Source: Phycisphaerae bacterium
Lineage (GTDB): Bacteria > Planctomycetota > Phycisphaerae > UBA1845
Assembly: GCA_022072505.1 (NCBI GenBank)
Contig: JAJVHU010000031.1
Coordinates: 17,974-81,973 of the forward strand
DNA length: 64,000 bases
Reading direction: 5' to 3'
The notes under the pieces: model-generated
Seen by the model: the letters and a program-made list of their open reading frames with translations, nothing else
Database searches by the model: none
What the model was told of the DNA's origin: nothing
Shown here: positions 20,259-49,090 of the stretch, piece after piece
How positions within the stretch are numbered: the first letter of the stretch is position 1
How the letters are laid out: each line of letters begins with the position of its first letter
Position numbers and translations under genes: made by a program

Positions 20259-23200
20259 TCAGCGGAGCCGCGCCTGAATCCACGCCGCCGCCGCCGCCAG
20301 CGCCTTCGGCAATCCCGCCGCGTCCGTTCCGCCGCCCTGGGCGAGGTCGGGTCGGCCGCCGCCTTTTCCGCCGACCAGCGGGCTGATTTCCTTGATGAGG
20401 TCGCCGGCCTTGATTCCGCGATCGACCACCGTCTTGCTCATGCCGGCCAGCAGTGTCACCTTGCCGTCATCGCCCACGCATGCCAGCAGCACCGCGCTCG
20501 CGTCGGTCTTCTGGCGGATCCAGTCGATCGCGCTGCGCAGGGCGTCCGGCGCACACGGCGGGACTTCGGCGACGATCACCGCGACGCCGTTGATCGTGGC
20601 CGTAAATGCTGAATGCTGAATGCTGAATGCTGAATGACCGGAGGCAGAGTCGACGCGCCCGGTCGCGCTGGTCGCATTCAATTCCGCATTCCGCATTCCG
20701 CATTCTGCATTGGCGCCGGCTCCTTCACGGTCACGGTTCGATTGCGCCTGCGCCAGCAGTTCCGCCACGCGGTCCATCACCGCTCCGCCGGAGGCCGCGG
20801 CCTTTTGCTTCTCGAGTTTCCTCGCCTTCTCGGCGAGCTGGTCGAGCTGCTCGCGGATCTTGTGGCGATCGAGAACGGGGATGAGGGCTTCACTGAACTC
20901 CTTCTGTGCCTCGACGAGCCGGGAATGAAACTCCGCCTCCGGCGCGTCCCACAGTGCCGCGACCTTGTCACGCAGCGACGCCGCCCGCGCGCGGGCTTCC
21001 TTCGCCGCCTGCGCCGTGACGCCGACCACCCGCCGCACGCCCTTGGCCACCGCTTCCTCGGAGACAATGACGAAATCGCCGATCTCGCCGGTGCGCTTCA
21101 CGTGCGTCCCGCCGCAGAACTCGACCGAGTACCGCATCCACTCCGGATTCTGCGGCGACTTGAGCAGCCAGTCCGACTTCCCCGCCGCCTTCGCGTCGGC
21201 CTCCGTGACGGGAACGCCGATCGAGACGACGCGGACTTTCTCGGGATACTTCTCGCCGAACACCGCCCGCAGCGTGTTCACCTGCCGCGCCGCGGCCTGA
21301 TCCACGAAATCCTCCTCGCGCGACGCGGCGTAGACCGGATGATCCGCGTGAATCTGCATCATCACGTAGTCTTCGATGCGGTCGATCTCCTCCTCGCTGA
21401 GCGCCTTGTTGTGGGAAAAGTCGAACCGCGTCTTCTCGGCGTCCACGAGGGAGCCTTTCTGCTGCACGTGCGGATTGACCCGCTCCTCCGGCGAACACAA
21501 GGCCTCACGCAGCGCCCAGTTGAGCAGGTGCGTGGCGGTGTGGTTTTTTTCTATCAGTAGCCGCCGCAGAGTATTGATTCTCGCAGTCACGAGCTCTCTC
21601 TTAGCATCGAGCATTACCTGTCCCGAGCGCAGAACGCCCTGGTGATCCACAACTACTCCGCCGCGGGCTGTGTTCAATACTTCAAATGTCCATCCATCAC
21701 CCTCAATTGTCCCGGAATCTCCAACCTGGCCGCCTTGCTCAGCGTAAAAACAAGTGCGGTCCAGAACGAGAGACCCAAGCTCGCCTGCTGGCCAACAATT
21801 CTCTACATGATCTCCAGTCGATGCTGTTTCGTGACTTAATATGAGTACCTTGGCTCTCAACTCTGTTACAGAGTATTTGAATTGATCATCTGTAGGGTCA
21901 AAATCCGCAAAAACACTGATGCTTGCTTCTTTCGACGAATCGCGCGCCCGCGCTCGCGCTTCCGCCATCAACCGCTCATACTCGGCGATGTCCACGGTCA
22001 GCCCGCGTTCCTCGGCCATCTGTTGGGTAAGGTCAATGGGAAACCCGTAAGTATCGTGGAGTCTGAATGCGGTGGCGCCGCTGAATTGCGGTAACAATCC
22101 ACAATACTTATTGAAGAGACCGGGTGAGATTTGCTCACCAAGAAAGACCTCCGTCGGTCTGCTCACATCGCCTTCATGCACTACGAAACGTGTTTCTGGT
22201 GAAACGTAGAATCTGTCGGCGTTTTGCGAAGGGAGCGTGTGGTGGAATGTTCTGGTTTGTATGTTAATCAGATACCGCTTCCCACCCAGCGAGGCTTGGT
22301 GTGCGGAGGCGAGTCGTACAAACATCCTAACGACTTCTTCTTCGAATAGCGCTATCCCTCGATCCAGTGTCTCCAGAAAAGACGCTTCTTCGTCACGGAT
22401 GACTTCCTTTAGATGTGCGACGTTCCTGCCGCCGTGCGCGGTGCGCAGTTCCGGGAAGGCGTCGCTCATGTGTTGCACCAGCGGTTCCACCAGGTCGCAG
22501 ATGAACGGTTCGTGCATGTTGAGGTATTGTCGTCCGAAGCGGACGGCGCGGCGCAGAATACGGCGCAACACGAACCCGCGGCCGTCGTTGCTGGGGATCG
22601 CGCCGTCGGTGATGGCGAAGGTCAGCGCGCGGAGGTGGTCGGCGATGACGCGGTAGGAGACGTCGATCATGATCTGCGTATTTGAAATCTCAGATTGGAG
22701 ATTCGCAGCGCCGGGCAGCGTTCCCGCATACGCCGGCGCGCCGGTGCGCTTGCGGATCGCCTGGAAGATCGGCGTGAACACGTCCGTGTCATAATTCGTG
22801 AATCGACCCAACTTGCCTGCCGCCAGCCCTTGCAGCACGGAGCAGAGGCGTTCGAAACCCATGCCGGTGTCCACGTGCCTGGCGGGCAGCGGCGTCAGCT
22901 TTCCGTCACTTCCGCGGTTGAACTGGATGAACACCAGGTTCCAGATTTCCATCACCCGCGCGTCGCCCTTGTTGACGAGAGGTCCGCCGCTGCAATCGGG
23001 CGTGAGGTCGATGTGAATCTCGCTGCACGGCCCGCACGGACCGGTGTCGCCCATCTCCCAGAAGTTGTCCTTCTTGTTGCCGGGGACAATGTGCGACTCG
23101 TCGATGTCGGTGGCGGTGCGCCAGAGGTCCGCCGCTTCCTGGTCCGGTTCAAGTCCTTCCGAGGGATCGCCTTGAAAGTACGTCGCGTAGAGACGTTCCT

Positions 23201-23594
23201 TCGGAATGCTCCAGACCCTGGTCAGCAGCTCCCACGCCCACGCGATCGCCTCCCGCTTGAAGTAGTCACCGAAGGACCAGTTGCCGAGCATTTCGAAGAA
23301 CGTGTGGTGATAGGTGTCCTTGCCGACGTCGTCGAGGTCGTTGTGCTTGCCGCCGGCGCGGATGCACTTCTGCGAGTTGGCGGCGCGGGTCGGCATCCCC
23401 GGCGTCACGCCGGTCCACCGATCGACATCCGCGGGCTTCTGCCCGAGGAAGATCGGTTTGAACTGGTTCATTCCCGCATTGGTGAAAAGCAGCGTGGGGT
23501 CGTCGAAGGGCACGACCGGCGAGGAGGGAACGACGGTGTGCCCGCGCTCGCGGAAGAACTCGATGAATTGACGTCGGATTTCGGATGAAGTCAT
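20259..23594 (-). CDS. alaS: Alanyl-tRNA synthetase, enlarged and mosaic
   Basis: Charges tRNA-Ala with alanine and edits mischarged Ser/Gly. The frame has 1111 codons, against about 875 in E. coli. Class II catalytic core at the N-terminus (FFRERGHTVVPSSPVVPFDD, PTLLFTNAGMNQFKPIFLG, KHNDLDDVGKDTYHHTFFE, DTGPCGPCSEIH), editing domain with HTATHLL near 688-694 and EFCGGTHVKRTGEIG, and a C-terminal domain ending GGGRPDLAQGGGTDAAGLP. The extra length comes from an unusual stretch of about 90 residues (about 440-530), a repeat-derived insertion near residues 960-998, and a short one near 298-306. Codons 389-685 (21541-22430) have clearly lower GC than the rest. ATG start; divergent from the lipoprotein gene at 23822. 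Confidence 0.95.
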   Translation of the reverse strand: MTSSEIRRQFIEFFRERGHTVVPSSPVVPFDDPTLLFTNAGMNQFKPIFLGQKPADVDRWTGVTPGMPTRAANSQKCIRAGGKHNDLDDVGKDTYHHTFFEMLGNWSFGDYFKREAIAWAWELLTRVWSIPKERLYATYFQGDPSEGLEPDQEAADLWRTATDIDESHIVPGNKKDNFWEMGDTGPCGPCSEIHIDLTPDCSGGPLVNKGDARVMEIWNLVFIQFNRGSDGKLTPLPARHVDTGMGFERLCSVLQGLAAGKLGRFTNYDTDVFTPIFQAIRKRTGAPAYAGTLPGAANLQSEISNTQIMIDVSYRVIADHLRALTFAITDGAIPSNDGRGFVLRRILRRAVRFGRQYLNMHEPFICDLVEPLVQHMSDAFPELRTAHGGRNVAHLKEVIRDEEASFLETLDRGIALFEEEVVRMFVRLASAHQASLGGKRYLINIQTRTFHHTLPSQNADRFYVSPETRFVVHEGDVSRPTEVFLGEQISPGLFNKYCGLLPQFSGATAFRLHDTYGFPIDLTQQMAEERGLTVDIAEYERLMAEARARARDSSKEASISVFADFDPTDDQFKYSVTELRAKVLILSHETASTGDHVENCWPAGELGSLVLDRTCFYAEQGGQVGDSGTIEGDGWTFEVLNTARGGVVVDHQGVLRSGQVMLDAKRELVTARINTLRRLLIEKNHTATHLLNWALREALCSPEERVNPHVQQKGSLVDAEKTRFDFSHNKALSEEEIDRIEDYVMMQIHADHPVYAASREEDFVDQAAARQVNTLRAVFGEKYPEKVRVVSIGVPVTEADAKAAGKSDWLLKSPQNPEWMRYSVEFCGGTHVKRTGEIGDFVIVSEEAVAKGVRRVVGVTAQAAKEARARAASLRDKVAALWDAPEAEFHSRLVEAQKEFSEALIPVLDRHKIREQLDQLAEKARKLEKQKAAASGGAVMDRVAELLAQAQSNRDREGAGANAECGMRNAELNATSATGRVDSASGHSAFSIQHSAFTATINGVAVIVAEVPPCAPDALRSAIDWIRQKTDASAVLLACVGDDGKVTLLAGMSKTVVDRGIKAGDLIKEISPLVGGKGGGRPDLAQGGGTDAAGLPKALAAAAAWIQARLR
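20603..20712. repeat. inverted-repeat insertion inside alaS
   Basis: Left arm: four copies of a 7-bp aatgctg unit (20604-20635). Right arm: attccgc units (20681-20712), close to the reverse complement of the left. About 45 bp separate the arms. Translated in the alaS frame the arms give NAECGMRNAEL and HSAFSIQHSAF, a pair of peptide strings characteristic of a dispersed repeat seen in many planctomycete and related genomes. The insertion keeps the reading frame and adds about 37 residues near the C-terminal domain of AlaRS. Confidence 0.85.
22681..22707. repeat. short repeat inside alaS (isnLQSEISN type)
   Basis: The sequence tttgaaatctcagattggag and its continuation translate in the alaS frame as LQSEISNTQ. 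It sits where AlaRS normally runs straight into the SYRVIADHLRA motif. AT-rich gaaatctcagattggagatt units of this kind are another common dispersed intragenic repeat. Only one short copy is present, so the identification is moderate. Confidence 0.5.
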
Positions 23595-47749: not shown

Positions 47750-48223
47750 TTACTTGATGGGCTTCGGCGGCGCCTTCGCGTCACACTTCTCGCCGCAGCA
47801 CTCGCCGAACAGCGACGCCCAGCTCTTCATCATCTTCGTGCCGGTCTCGGCGACCACGTCGAACCCGCTGCGCATCGTCCCGAAGGCGTCGCGCATCGTC
47901 TCCTGCGCCGTCACCGGCCAGTTCATGTCCTTGCCGCCCTGAGCCTTGTCGATCGTCCGCTTGAAGAAGTCCATGTTCGAGCGGACCTGCGCGTTCATCG
48001 CCCCGGCGAAAAGGTCGAAACTCTCGCGCATCACCGGCGCGAAGTTCCGGGTCATCCGCTCGTTGCTCGTCTTGAAGTCCTCAAAACGCGGATTGAACAC
48101 CGGCGTCATGCCCGCAAAGCGGGTCGTCGCGTCCCACATCCGCGTCGAAGCCTGAACCCCGGCTTCGACCGTCTGTCGCGCCTGGTCCATCATGTCCGTC
48201 ATAAAATCAGGTGCCTGAGTCAT
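47750..48223 (-). CDS. phaP: Phasin-like PHA granule protein
   Basis: 157 residues, mostly amphipathic helix with Met, Gln and Phe, the phasin pattern: MDQARQTVEAGVQASTRMWD, SNERMTRNFAPVMRESFDLF, MNAQVRSNMDFFKRTIDKAQ and a Cys/Lys tail. Phasins coat PHA granules. Start at 48223 (MTQAPDF), 10 bases after a gggag motif; ATG 48232 is directly on that motif. First gene of the PHA run, with its own promoter (48300-48328), divergent from phaR. Confidence 0.8.
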   Translation of the reverse strand: MTQAPDFMTDMMDQARQTVEAGVQASTRMWDATTRFAGMTPVFNPRFEDFKTSNERMTRNFAPVMRESFDLFAGAMNAQVRSNMDFFKRTIDKAQGGKDMNWPVTAQETMRDAFGTMRSGFDVVAETGTKMMKSWASLFGECCGEKCDAKAPPKPIK

Positions 48224-48299
48224 GTCTTGCATCTCCCTTGCCTGGGGTTTCCGTCCGCCCCCGCGACCTGCCCGGAGGCTCTTGTTCACTGCCGATAAA

Positions 48300-48328
48300 A
48301 GTCTACCACGTTTTTGCGTTCGCGTCAA
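48300..48328 (-). promoter_or_regulatory. candidate sigma-70 promoter of the phasin gene
   Basis: On the minus strand: -35 TTGACG (48323-48328), 17-bp spacer, -10 TAGACT (48300-48305). The start would fall about 70 bp upstream of the phasin ATG. Match to consensus is good (5/6 and 4/6), in an AT-rich patch of an otherwise GC-rich region. Confidence 0.5.
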
Positions 48329-48338
48329 GTCTTTTTTA

Positions 48339-48348
48339 TGCAATTGCA
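48339..48348. promoter_or_regulatory. candidate PhaR operator (TGCAATTGCA palindrome)
   Basis: A perfect 10-bp palindrome, TGCAATTGCA, in the divergent phaP-phaR intergenic region, overlapping the candidate -35 (TTGCAA, 48344-48349) of a plus-strand promoter whose -10 is TTATAT (48367-48372; 17-bp spacer). PhaR repressors in other bacteria bind TGC-GCA type sites, which is why this is proposed. Confidence 0.4.
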
Positions 48349-48481
48349 AAAAAAGAGGGTGTTTCTTTATATCTATATTATTTACAGTACGTTATAAAAC
48401 ATAACGCGCCGCCCCTTTGACACTTCACCCCCCTTGTCCTATCCTTTCTTTGGTGCGAAGCCACCAAAAAAGGGGGGTGTC

Positions 48482-49090
48482 ATGAGCGAGCCGAAGGCCC
48501 GCCAGATCATGCAGGTCAAGAAATACCCCAACCGGCGGTTCTACGACACGACGCAAAGCCGGCACGTCACGCTTCAGGAGCTTCATGAGGGGCTGCTGGA
48601 GGGCAAGACGCTCGAGGTGACCGACACCCGCACCGGGGAGGACATCACGAATGTCATCCTGATCCAGATTCTGCTGGAGAAGGATCCCCCGAAGCTGCAC
48701 CTCTTCCCGACGTGGATCCTTCACGCCCTGGTGCGCTCGAAACCGTCGGCGTTCCGCACCGCGATGGAAGGCTTCCTCGCTCCGCTGACGCATCCGATGG
48801 TGCAATCCCGTCGGCAACTCGATGACGTCATGAACCGGGCGATGTCCGGCGAGATGATCAACCCCCTTGAGTGGGCCCAGGCGATGATGCGCTCCTTCGC
48901 GCCGAGAACCCCTGACACCGTTCAGAACGGCCGGAGCGACGCGGACGCAACCGCGCCCGAACCCGCGCCGGACTCCACCGTCGAGGTGGAGGATCTGCGA
49001 CGCCAACTCGCCGAACTCGCCCGCCGCCTCGAGGCGATCCGCCCCGAATCCCCTTCAACACCACGCCCGCAACAGGGACGTGGCGAATGA
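48482..49090 (+). CDS. phaR: PHA synthesis repressor PhaR
   Basis: A regulator that binds both PHA granules and the phasin promoter. 202 residues: the DNA-binding domain IMQVKKYPNRRFYDTTQSRH then VTLQELHEGLLEGKTLEVTD (residues about 8-60), the PHB-accumulation region (NVILIQILLEKDPPKLHLFP), and a C-terminal coiled coil (VEVEDLRRQLAELARRLEAI). Start at ATG 48482 with a gggggg ribosome binding site. Divergent from phaP, so a single regulator site between them can control both. Confidence 0.93.
   Translation: MSEPKARQIMQVKKYPNRRFYDTTQSRHVTLQELHEGLLEGKTLEVTDTRTGEDITNVILIQILLEKDPPKLHLFPTWILHALVRSKPSAFRTAMEGFLAPLTHPMVQSRRQLDDVMNRAMSGEMINPLEWAQAMMRSFAPRTPDTVQNGRSDADATAPEPAPDSTVEVEDLRRQLAELARRLEAIRPESPSTPRPQQGRGE

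Follow-up and report, generated by a model that had tools for sequence, protein, structure and literature searches.

Composition and layout of alaS

The window, as the 64,000-nucleotide stretch of Phycisphaerae DNA analysed here will be called, carries on its minus strand a gene for alanyl-tRNA synthetase (AlaRS). The product scores 831.5 bits against TIGR00344 (bacterial alanine--tRNA ligase), for which the curated cut-off is 457. The parts of the gene that matter to what follows are listed in the order in which they are translated.

20259..23594, minus strand: alaS, alanyl-tRNA synthetase, 1111 aa in a single open frame, matching TIGR00344
22072..22353, minus strand: site 1, the second variable tract, codons ~415-508, in its long state; non-alignable with genomes G001, G002 and G003; GC3 0.54
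21955..22071, minus strand: conserved block between site 1 and site 2, FRLHDTYGFPIDLT...EAR; alignable with same-genus genomes and nearly invariant over 64 genomes
21548..21954, minus strand: site 2, the hypervariable segment (very probably a replaced one, as argued below), codons ~548-682, N-terminal half of the editing domain; non-alignable with G001 and G002; GC3 0.46
21528..21542, minus strand: editing motif HTATH, codons 685-689; H685, T688 and H689 invariant in a 40-sequence alignment
21102..21116, minus strand: editing motif CGGTH, codons 827-831; C827, G829 and H831 invariant in the same alignment
20589..20718, minus strand: low-GC3 repeat linker near the C-terminal domain, its heptamer repeats translated in frame (tandem repeats at 20605-20636 and 20681-20711); non-alignable with G003

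The family, genus and genome codes (f1, g1, G001 and so on) are internal labels of the analysis; G000 is the genome from which the window comes.

Over the 64 kb, the GC content of 400-bp windows averages 0.669 (sd 0.038). The lowest value (0.49, at 21541-21940) lies inside alaS, and the majority of the 25 lowest fall in the same tract of the gene; the other lowest-GC stretch is at 48141-48680 (0.51-0.52). GC at third codon positions (GC3) is 0.82 over alaS codons 1-414, drops to 0.54 in site 1 (codons 415-508), recovers to 0.69 between the tracts (codons 509-547), drops again to 0.46 in site 2 (codons 548-682), stands at 0.88 over codons 683-949, dips to 0.56 in the repeat linker (codons ~949-998) and ends at 0.88 over codons 998-1111. 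For comparison, GC3 in eight neighbouring ORFs, taken over 592 windows of 133 codons, averages 0.84 and goes no lower than 0.61.

An earlier note on this DNA had described a strikingly GC-poor tract in alaS at 21541-22430, broken by a GC-rich island at 21946-22015 and ending at the HTATHLL editing motif, and had suggested intragenic recombination with a foreign alaS. The description is borne out: hand counting finds the claimed 24 G/C among the 60 nucleotides of 21841-21900, the island is real and forms a portion of the conserved block at 21955-22071, and the tract does stop at the editing motif, which starts at codon 685. Its limits were nearly right: the parts that fail to align with relatives are really 21548-21954 and 22072-22353, and the remaining piece, 22354-22430, is reduced in GC yet alignable.

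Anatomy of the variable segments

The window shares with the same-genus genomes G001 and G003 a syntenic block that begins at alaS and extends to roughly position 38 kb. Blastn leaves very little of this block unaligned, and alaS is the only gene in it with internal non-alignable tracts. Against G003 the alignment gap at site 2 is somewhat narrower (21567-21940 by blastn). Site 2 is the beta-rich N-terminal half of the editing domain, mostly modelled with confidence by AlphaFold, and the modelled enzyme resembles AlaRS and AlaX-M structures. Over the 64 genomes of the main comparison (see below), little persists within site 2 other than an FYxExGGQ motif and a few positions, and its flanks are nearly invariant. 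The HxxxH (685-689) and CxxxH (827-831) editing motifs are both intact in the window's AlaRS. With these motifs in place and a fold that, by prediction, is preserved, the enzyme should still charge and proofread.

Site 1 of the window's alaS contains roughly 70-80 aa of inserted sequence that G001 and G002 lack. AlphaFold models it mostly at low confidence, and a Pfam search with it gave no match. In most relatives this interval is 28-31 aa long; about a third of f1 and f4 have 58-105 aa there. Its changes are not coupled to those of site 2: within genus g5, where site 2 is vertically inherited, G101 has a long site 1 and the other sampled members a short one. Outside the order, a long state (84 aa) is also present in L153 (genome G124, family f10); the other measured f10 genomes have 27 aa at this place.

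The repeat linker is modelled with pLDDT below 50 at residues 961-994. AATGCTG (x4.6) and ATTCCGC (x4.4) repeats are translated in frame in alaS linkers (20601-20711 and about 22671-22712), and codons ~297-307 are a repeat-like insertion, likewise translated in frame within a linker. A RAYT-kind Y1/IS200-like transposase domain (PF01797) lies in frame inside the AlaRS of L033 (G003) and L038 (G048) and inside LeuRS of the window's genome (L268, about G000:C11:46460-47328), flanked in these genes by repeat-derived sequence. For L033 (G003:C77:151582-151992), the match to the C-terminal portion of alaS lies in a different frame and contains one TGA, which is either a frameshift or a sequencing error.

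Site 2 and its flanks among relatives

Genes for AlaRS were taken from about 110 relatives, and the 99 in which both segment anchors were found in one open frame were used. The main set for hypervariability comprises 64 genomes from f1, f2, f4 and f8, which are families of this Phycisphaerae order; f2 is represented by one genome. Same-genus pairs in f1 (g1), f4 (g59) and f8 (g39, g52) are 30-40% identical in site 2 and mostly 80-98% identical in the flanks. Throughout the range of flank identities from 0.60 to 0.80, the median site 2 identity in the four families stays at about 0.34. Of the 36 pairs whose flanks exceed 0.80, 28 have a site 2 identity under 0.5; in control families of the class all 22 such pairs stay at 0.69 or higher. 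Nearly every site 2 segment is dissimilar to all others sampled. The N-terminal half of the AlaRS editing domain is, in short, decoupled from phylogeny in four families of the order, as a variable region of about 130 aa between conserved regions (at least 70 aa defines a segmentally variable gene).

The decoupling is not universal. Site 2 follows the flanks in same-genus pairs of g5 and in G103/G105, with no acceleration, and also in G012/G094; in other pairs, among them G093 against its own genus mates, it is unrelated. The pair G006/G098 is intermediate (site 2 identity 0.49); since such pairs exist, some fast divergence after import is possible. A milder case is seen in a control family, in genus g96 of f11 (L142-L146): G125 and G186 have flanks at 0.96-0.97 and segments at 0.72, with G186/G255 at 0.90.

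Taken literally, intragenic recombination with a foreign alaS would be a single event, with one donor, in the window's lineage, and the sharp change of composition and the non-alignable tracts of G000 favour it. However, G001, G002 and G003 are mutually as divergent in the site 2 interval as G000 is from them, the same codon interval differs in most relatives, with pairs in other genera and several families equally divergent, and there are two tracts, changing independently, with an island retained between them. One event from one donor is therefore contradicted by the relatives and highly improbable; the recombination in the earlier proposal survives, on the strength of the four-fold saturation and tree conflict that are described next.

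Four-fold sites

In the flanks, four-fold sites of G001 and G003 are 0.88 (3' flank) and 0.73 (5' flank) identical; those of G042 and G046, both single-contig genomes, 0.74-0.78. For all tested same-genus pairs, the four-fold identity is 0.54-0.88 in the flanks and 0.20-0.44, which is near random, in the segment. In the closest pairs a freely evolving stretch would be expected to be about 68-88% identical, and the segment is observed to be 41-46% identical. Because four-fold sites are saturated inside the segment and not outside it, the change in the segment exceeds neutral divergence. Relaxed constraint on site 2, considered as a candidate explanation, is rejected on the same ground.

Conflict between segment and flank trees

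At 131 columns the alignment of the segment is short, and parts of its tree are unresolved. The flank tree is arranged largely by family, with five changes needed for f1, three for f8 and two for f4. On the segment tree the corresponding numbers are 15, nine and eight: f1, f4 and f8 are scattered, the starred clades mix families, and f10 and f11 are still single clades. An approximately unbiased (AU) test rejects the window's genus as one segment clade (p-AU 0.0008); the test is weaker elsewhere, at 0.035 for G001 and G003 alone and 0.10 for genus g39. The two trees are thus in conflict, as an exchanged segment would have them, and the comparison of topologies for the segment and flanks of AlaRS that had been proposed in the earlier note comes out in favour of recombination. 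One gene behaves differently: L037 (G010:C1496), the alaS of a genome binned to f1, joins f5 in both trees, which indicates a whole-gene transfer or a misbinned contig.

These data bear also on the suggestion that the segment has diverged rapidly in place, by relaxed constraint, at a mutational hot spot or under positive selection by point mutation. Such a process would be compatible with a GC3 that is lower throughout the swapping families (see below), with segments that are almost all unlike one another, and with a segment that is faster than its flanks even in Balneolaceae. It does not fit four-fold saturation confined to the segment and going beyond neutral divergence, the lack of acceleration in some same-genus pairs (g5, G103/G105), versions that are related across families while sisters differ, or the retention of the FYxExGGQ motif. 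We regard divergence in place as unlikely, if slightly less so than the single event.

Controls

LeuRS and ThrRS also edit, and in same-genus pairs they show no hypervariability apart from linker insertions, so that hypervariability is not general to editing domains. Balneolaceae, of another phylum, at first looked like a parallel case, which was rejected when closer pairs showed the segment tracking the flanks: site 2 evolves faster there than the flanks without parting from them (0.66-0.93 at flank identities above 0.90).

Many of the genomes were assembled from metagenomes, and conserved blocks on either side of a segment could cause mis-joins. Chimeric assembly is nevertheless very improbable as an explanation. 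The single-contig genomes G042 and G046 show the same contrast between segment and flanks, which makes an assembly artefact unlikely; the open frames run across the joins, and each of 12 genomes searched has a single copy; the phenomenon is confined to certain families while the controls are clean; and some of these assemblies were seen to contain normal LeuRS and ThrRS.

Fixed boundaries and high turnover are also what a resident diversification system (silent cassettes, a shufflon or a diversity-generating retroelement) rewriting the segment in each genome would look like. A profile of 22 segment types, run against 12 genomes, found one match per genome, that in alaS itself, and no silent copy of the segment beyond it; inspection of four neighbourhoods brought out no conspicuous shared gene that might serve diversification. 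With no further copy in 12 genomes and no shared neighbour standing out, such a system is hardly credible, the least likely of the explanations discussed here.

GC3 offset and the search for a donor

The GC3 offset (segment minus flank) was determined for the 99 genomes. Its mean is -0.16 in f1, -0.22 in f8 and -0.06 in f4, and the family means of f5, f10, f11, f13, f21, f22, f24 and f26 lie within about 0.04 of zero. Genus g5, with its vertically inherited segment, ranges from -0.02 to +0.11; G000, at -0.42, is the most negative of all 99. Whether close relatives have the same low-GC patch, as had been asked in the earlier note, has a divided answer: the position is the same, and usually AT-richer in them too, but the sequences of the patches are unrelated.

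No close donor of the G000 segment turned up among roughly 900 genomes (114 of the order and about 400 each of the class and phylum, in overlapping sets), the best matches being 35-48% identical. Phage and plasmid collections gave weak matches only (about 30-51%), several of them annotated as bacterial alaS, and no close donor; viral contigs gave no match to the segment. Neither a close donor nor a recent switch was found among the genomes searched and, with no donor above 48% identity, no exchange has been caught in the act. We read the GC3 offset as the mark of an import whose composition ameliorates if the version stays in place for long. The import into G000 would then be comparatively recent, and its source richer in AT and outside the sampled genomes. 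Mutual exchange does not explain why whole families are offset towards AT; that calls for a source outside them or for a mutation bias acting locally.

Probable recurrent replacement and what may drive it

What we count in favour of exchange is the decoupled identity, the four-fold saturation confined to the segment, the occurrence of segment types across families, a GC3 offset restricted to the swapping families, the confinement of internal non-alignable tracts to alaS in the syntenic block, and the absence of the pattern from LeuRS, ThrRS, the control families and Balneolaceae. Recurrent replacement of the alaS segment by recombination through its conserved flanks is, in our judgement, very probable. 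The N-terminal half of the editing domain would have been exchanged many times, in f1, f4 and f8 and possibly in f2, for strongly diverged homologous versions, with site 1, the neighbouring loop on the 5' side, changing separately from site 2. As the anatomy of the segment suggests, incoming alaS DNA, contributed by fellow members of the group or by some unsampled source richer in AT, would most likely undergo homologous recombination via the conserved blocks on either side of site 2 (DTYGFPIDLT...EAR and NHTATHLLNWAL...).

As for the driver, selection for rarity is the leading hypothesis, if on the doubtful side: an undiscovered factor encoded by a phage, a mobile element or a competitor might bind or attack AlaRS at this surface and be escaped by swapping the subdomain. 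Antagonist pressure is suggested by analogy with segmentally variable genes (PMC387263) and with the specificity domains of restriction systems. Alternatively, exchange may be neutrally tolerated, without selection, in a domain that is permissive and lies between strongly homologous flanks.

Relation to known systems

Segmentally variable (mosaic) genes, in which variable stretches of at least 70 aa lie between well-conserved regions, were described by Zheng, Roberts and Kasif in 2004 (PMC387263). Their paper mentions aminoacyl-tRNA synthetases, with ProRS as an example; AlaRS is absent from it ('alanyl' has 0 occurrences). The layout of alaS is the same, a variable stretch between conserved regions of one gene. 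In alaS, however, members of one genus differ by more than neutral divergence, and the variation contradicts the phylogeny, which points to exchange. Target-recognition-domain swapping in the specificity and methyltransferase genes of restriction-modification systems (see also PMC387263) shares with alaS the conserved flanks, the interchangeable domain and the versions that recur in different species; AlaRS, in contrast, is an essential housekeeping enzyme without a DNA-recognition role, and no membership is claimed for it. With the AlaRS/AlaX-M editing domain (PDB 3wqy, 2ztg, 2e1b) the match is one of modelled fold, HxxxH and CxxxH being kept, and the difference is that in the swapping families its N-terminal half is hypervariable even between closely related genomes. 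The mosaic penA alleles that arise in Neisseria by interspecies recombination (PMC10926701) are alike in the intragenic import into a conserved gene. The case of alaS differs in having no known drug-target selection or donor, and in that several families are affected at the same fixed interval. That conserved genes can carry variable segments is an established concept (PMC387263); no prior report of a hypervariable segment in AlaRS was found in the open-access literature searched.

Significance

Aminoacyl-tRNA synthetases are usually treated as conserved, and as transferred whole or not at all. Here, in several families, one subdomain of AlaRS outpaces the neutral sites of its own flanks, and the remaining enzyme, LeuRS and ThrRS are conserved. 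One practical consequence is that phylogenies, and screens that look for transferred genes by their composition, can be led astray by site 2 of alaS; another is that dozens of natural domain swaps are available for studying editing. If the phenomenon is confirmed, AlaRS would be a possible target of an undiscovered antagonist or partner, and if selection for rarity is its true cause, an essential enzyme of translation would be behaving, in these bacteria, as a polymorphic recognition locus.
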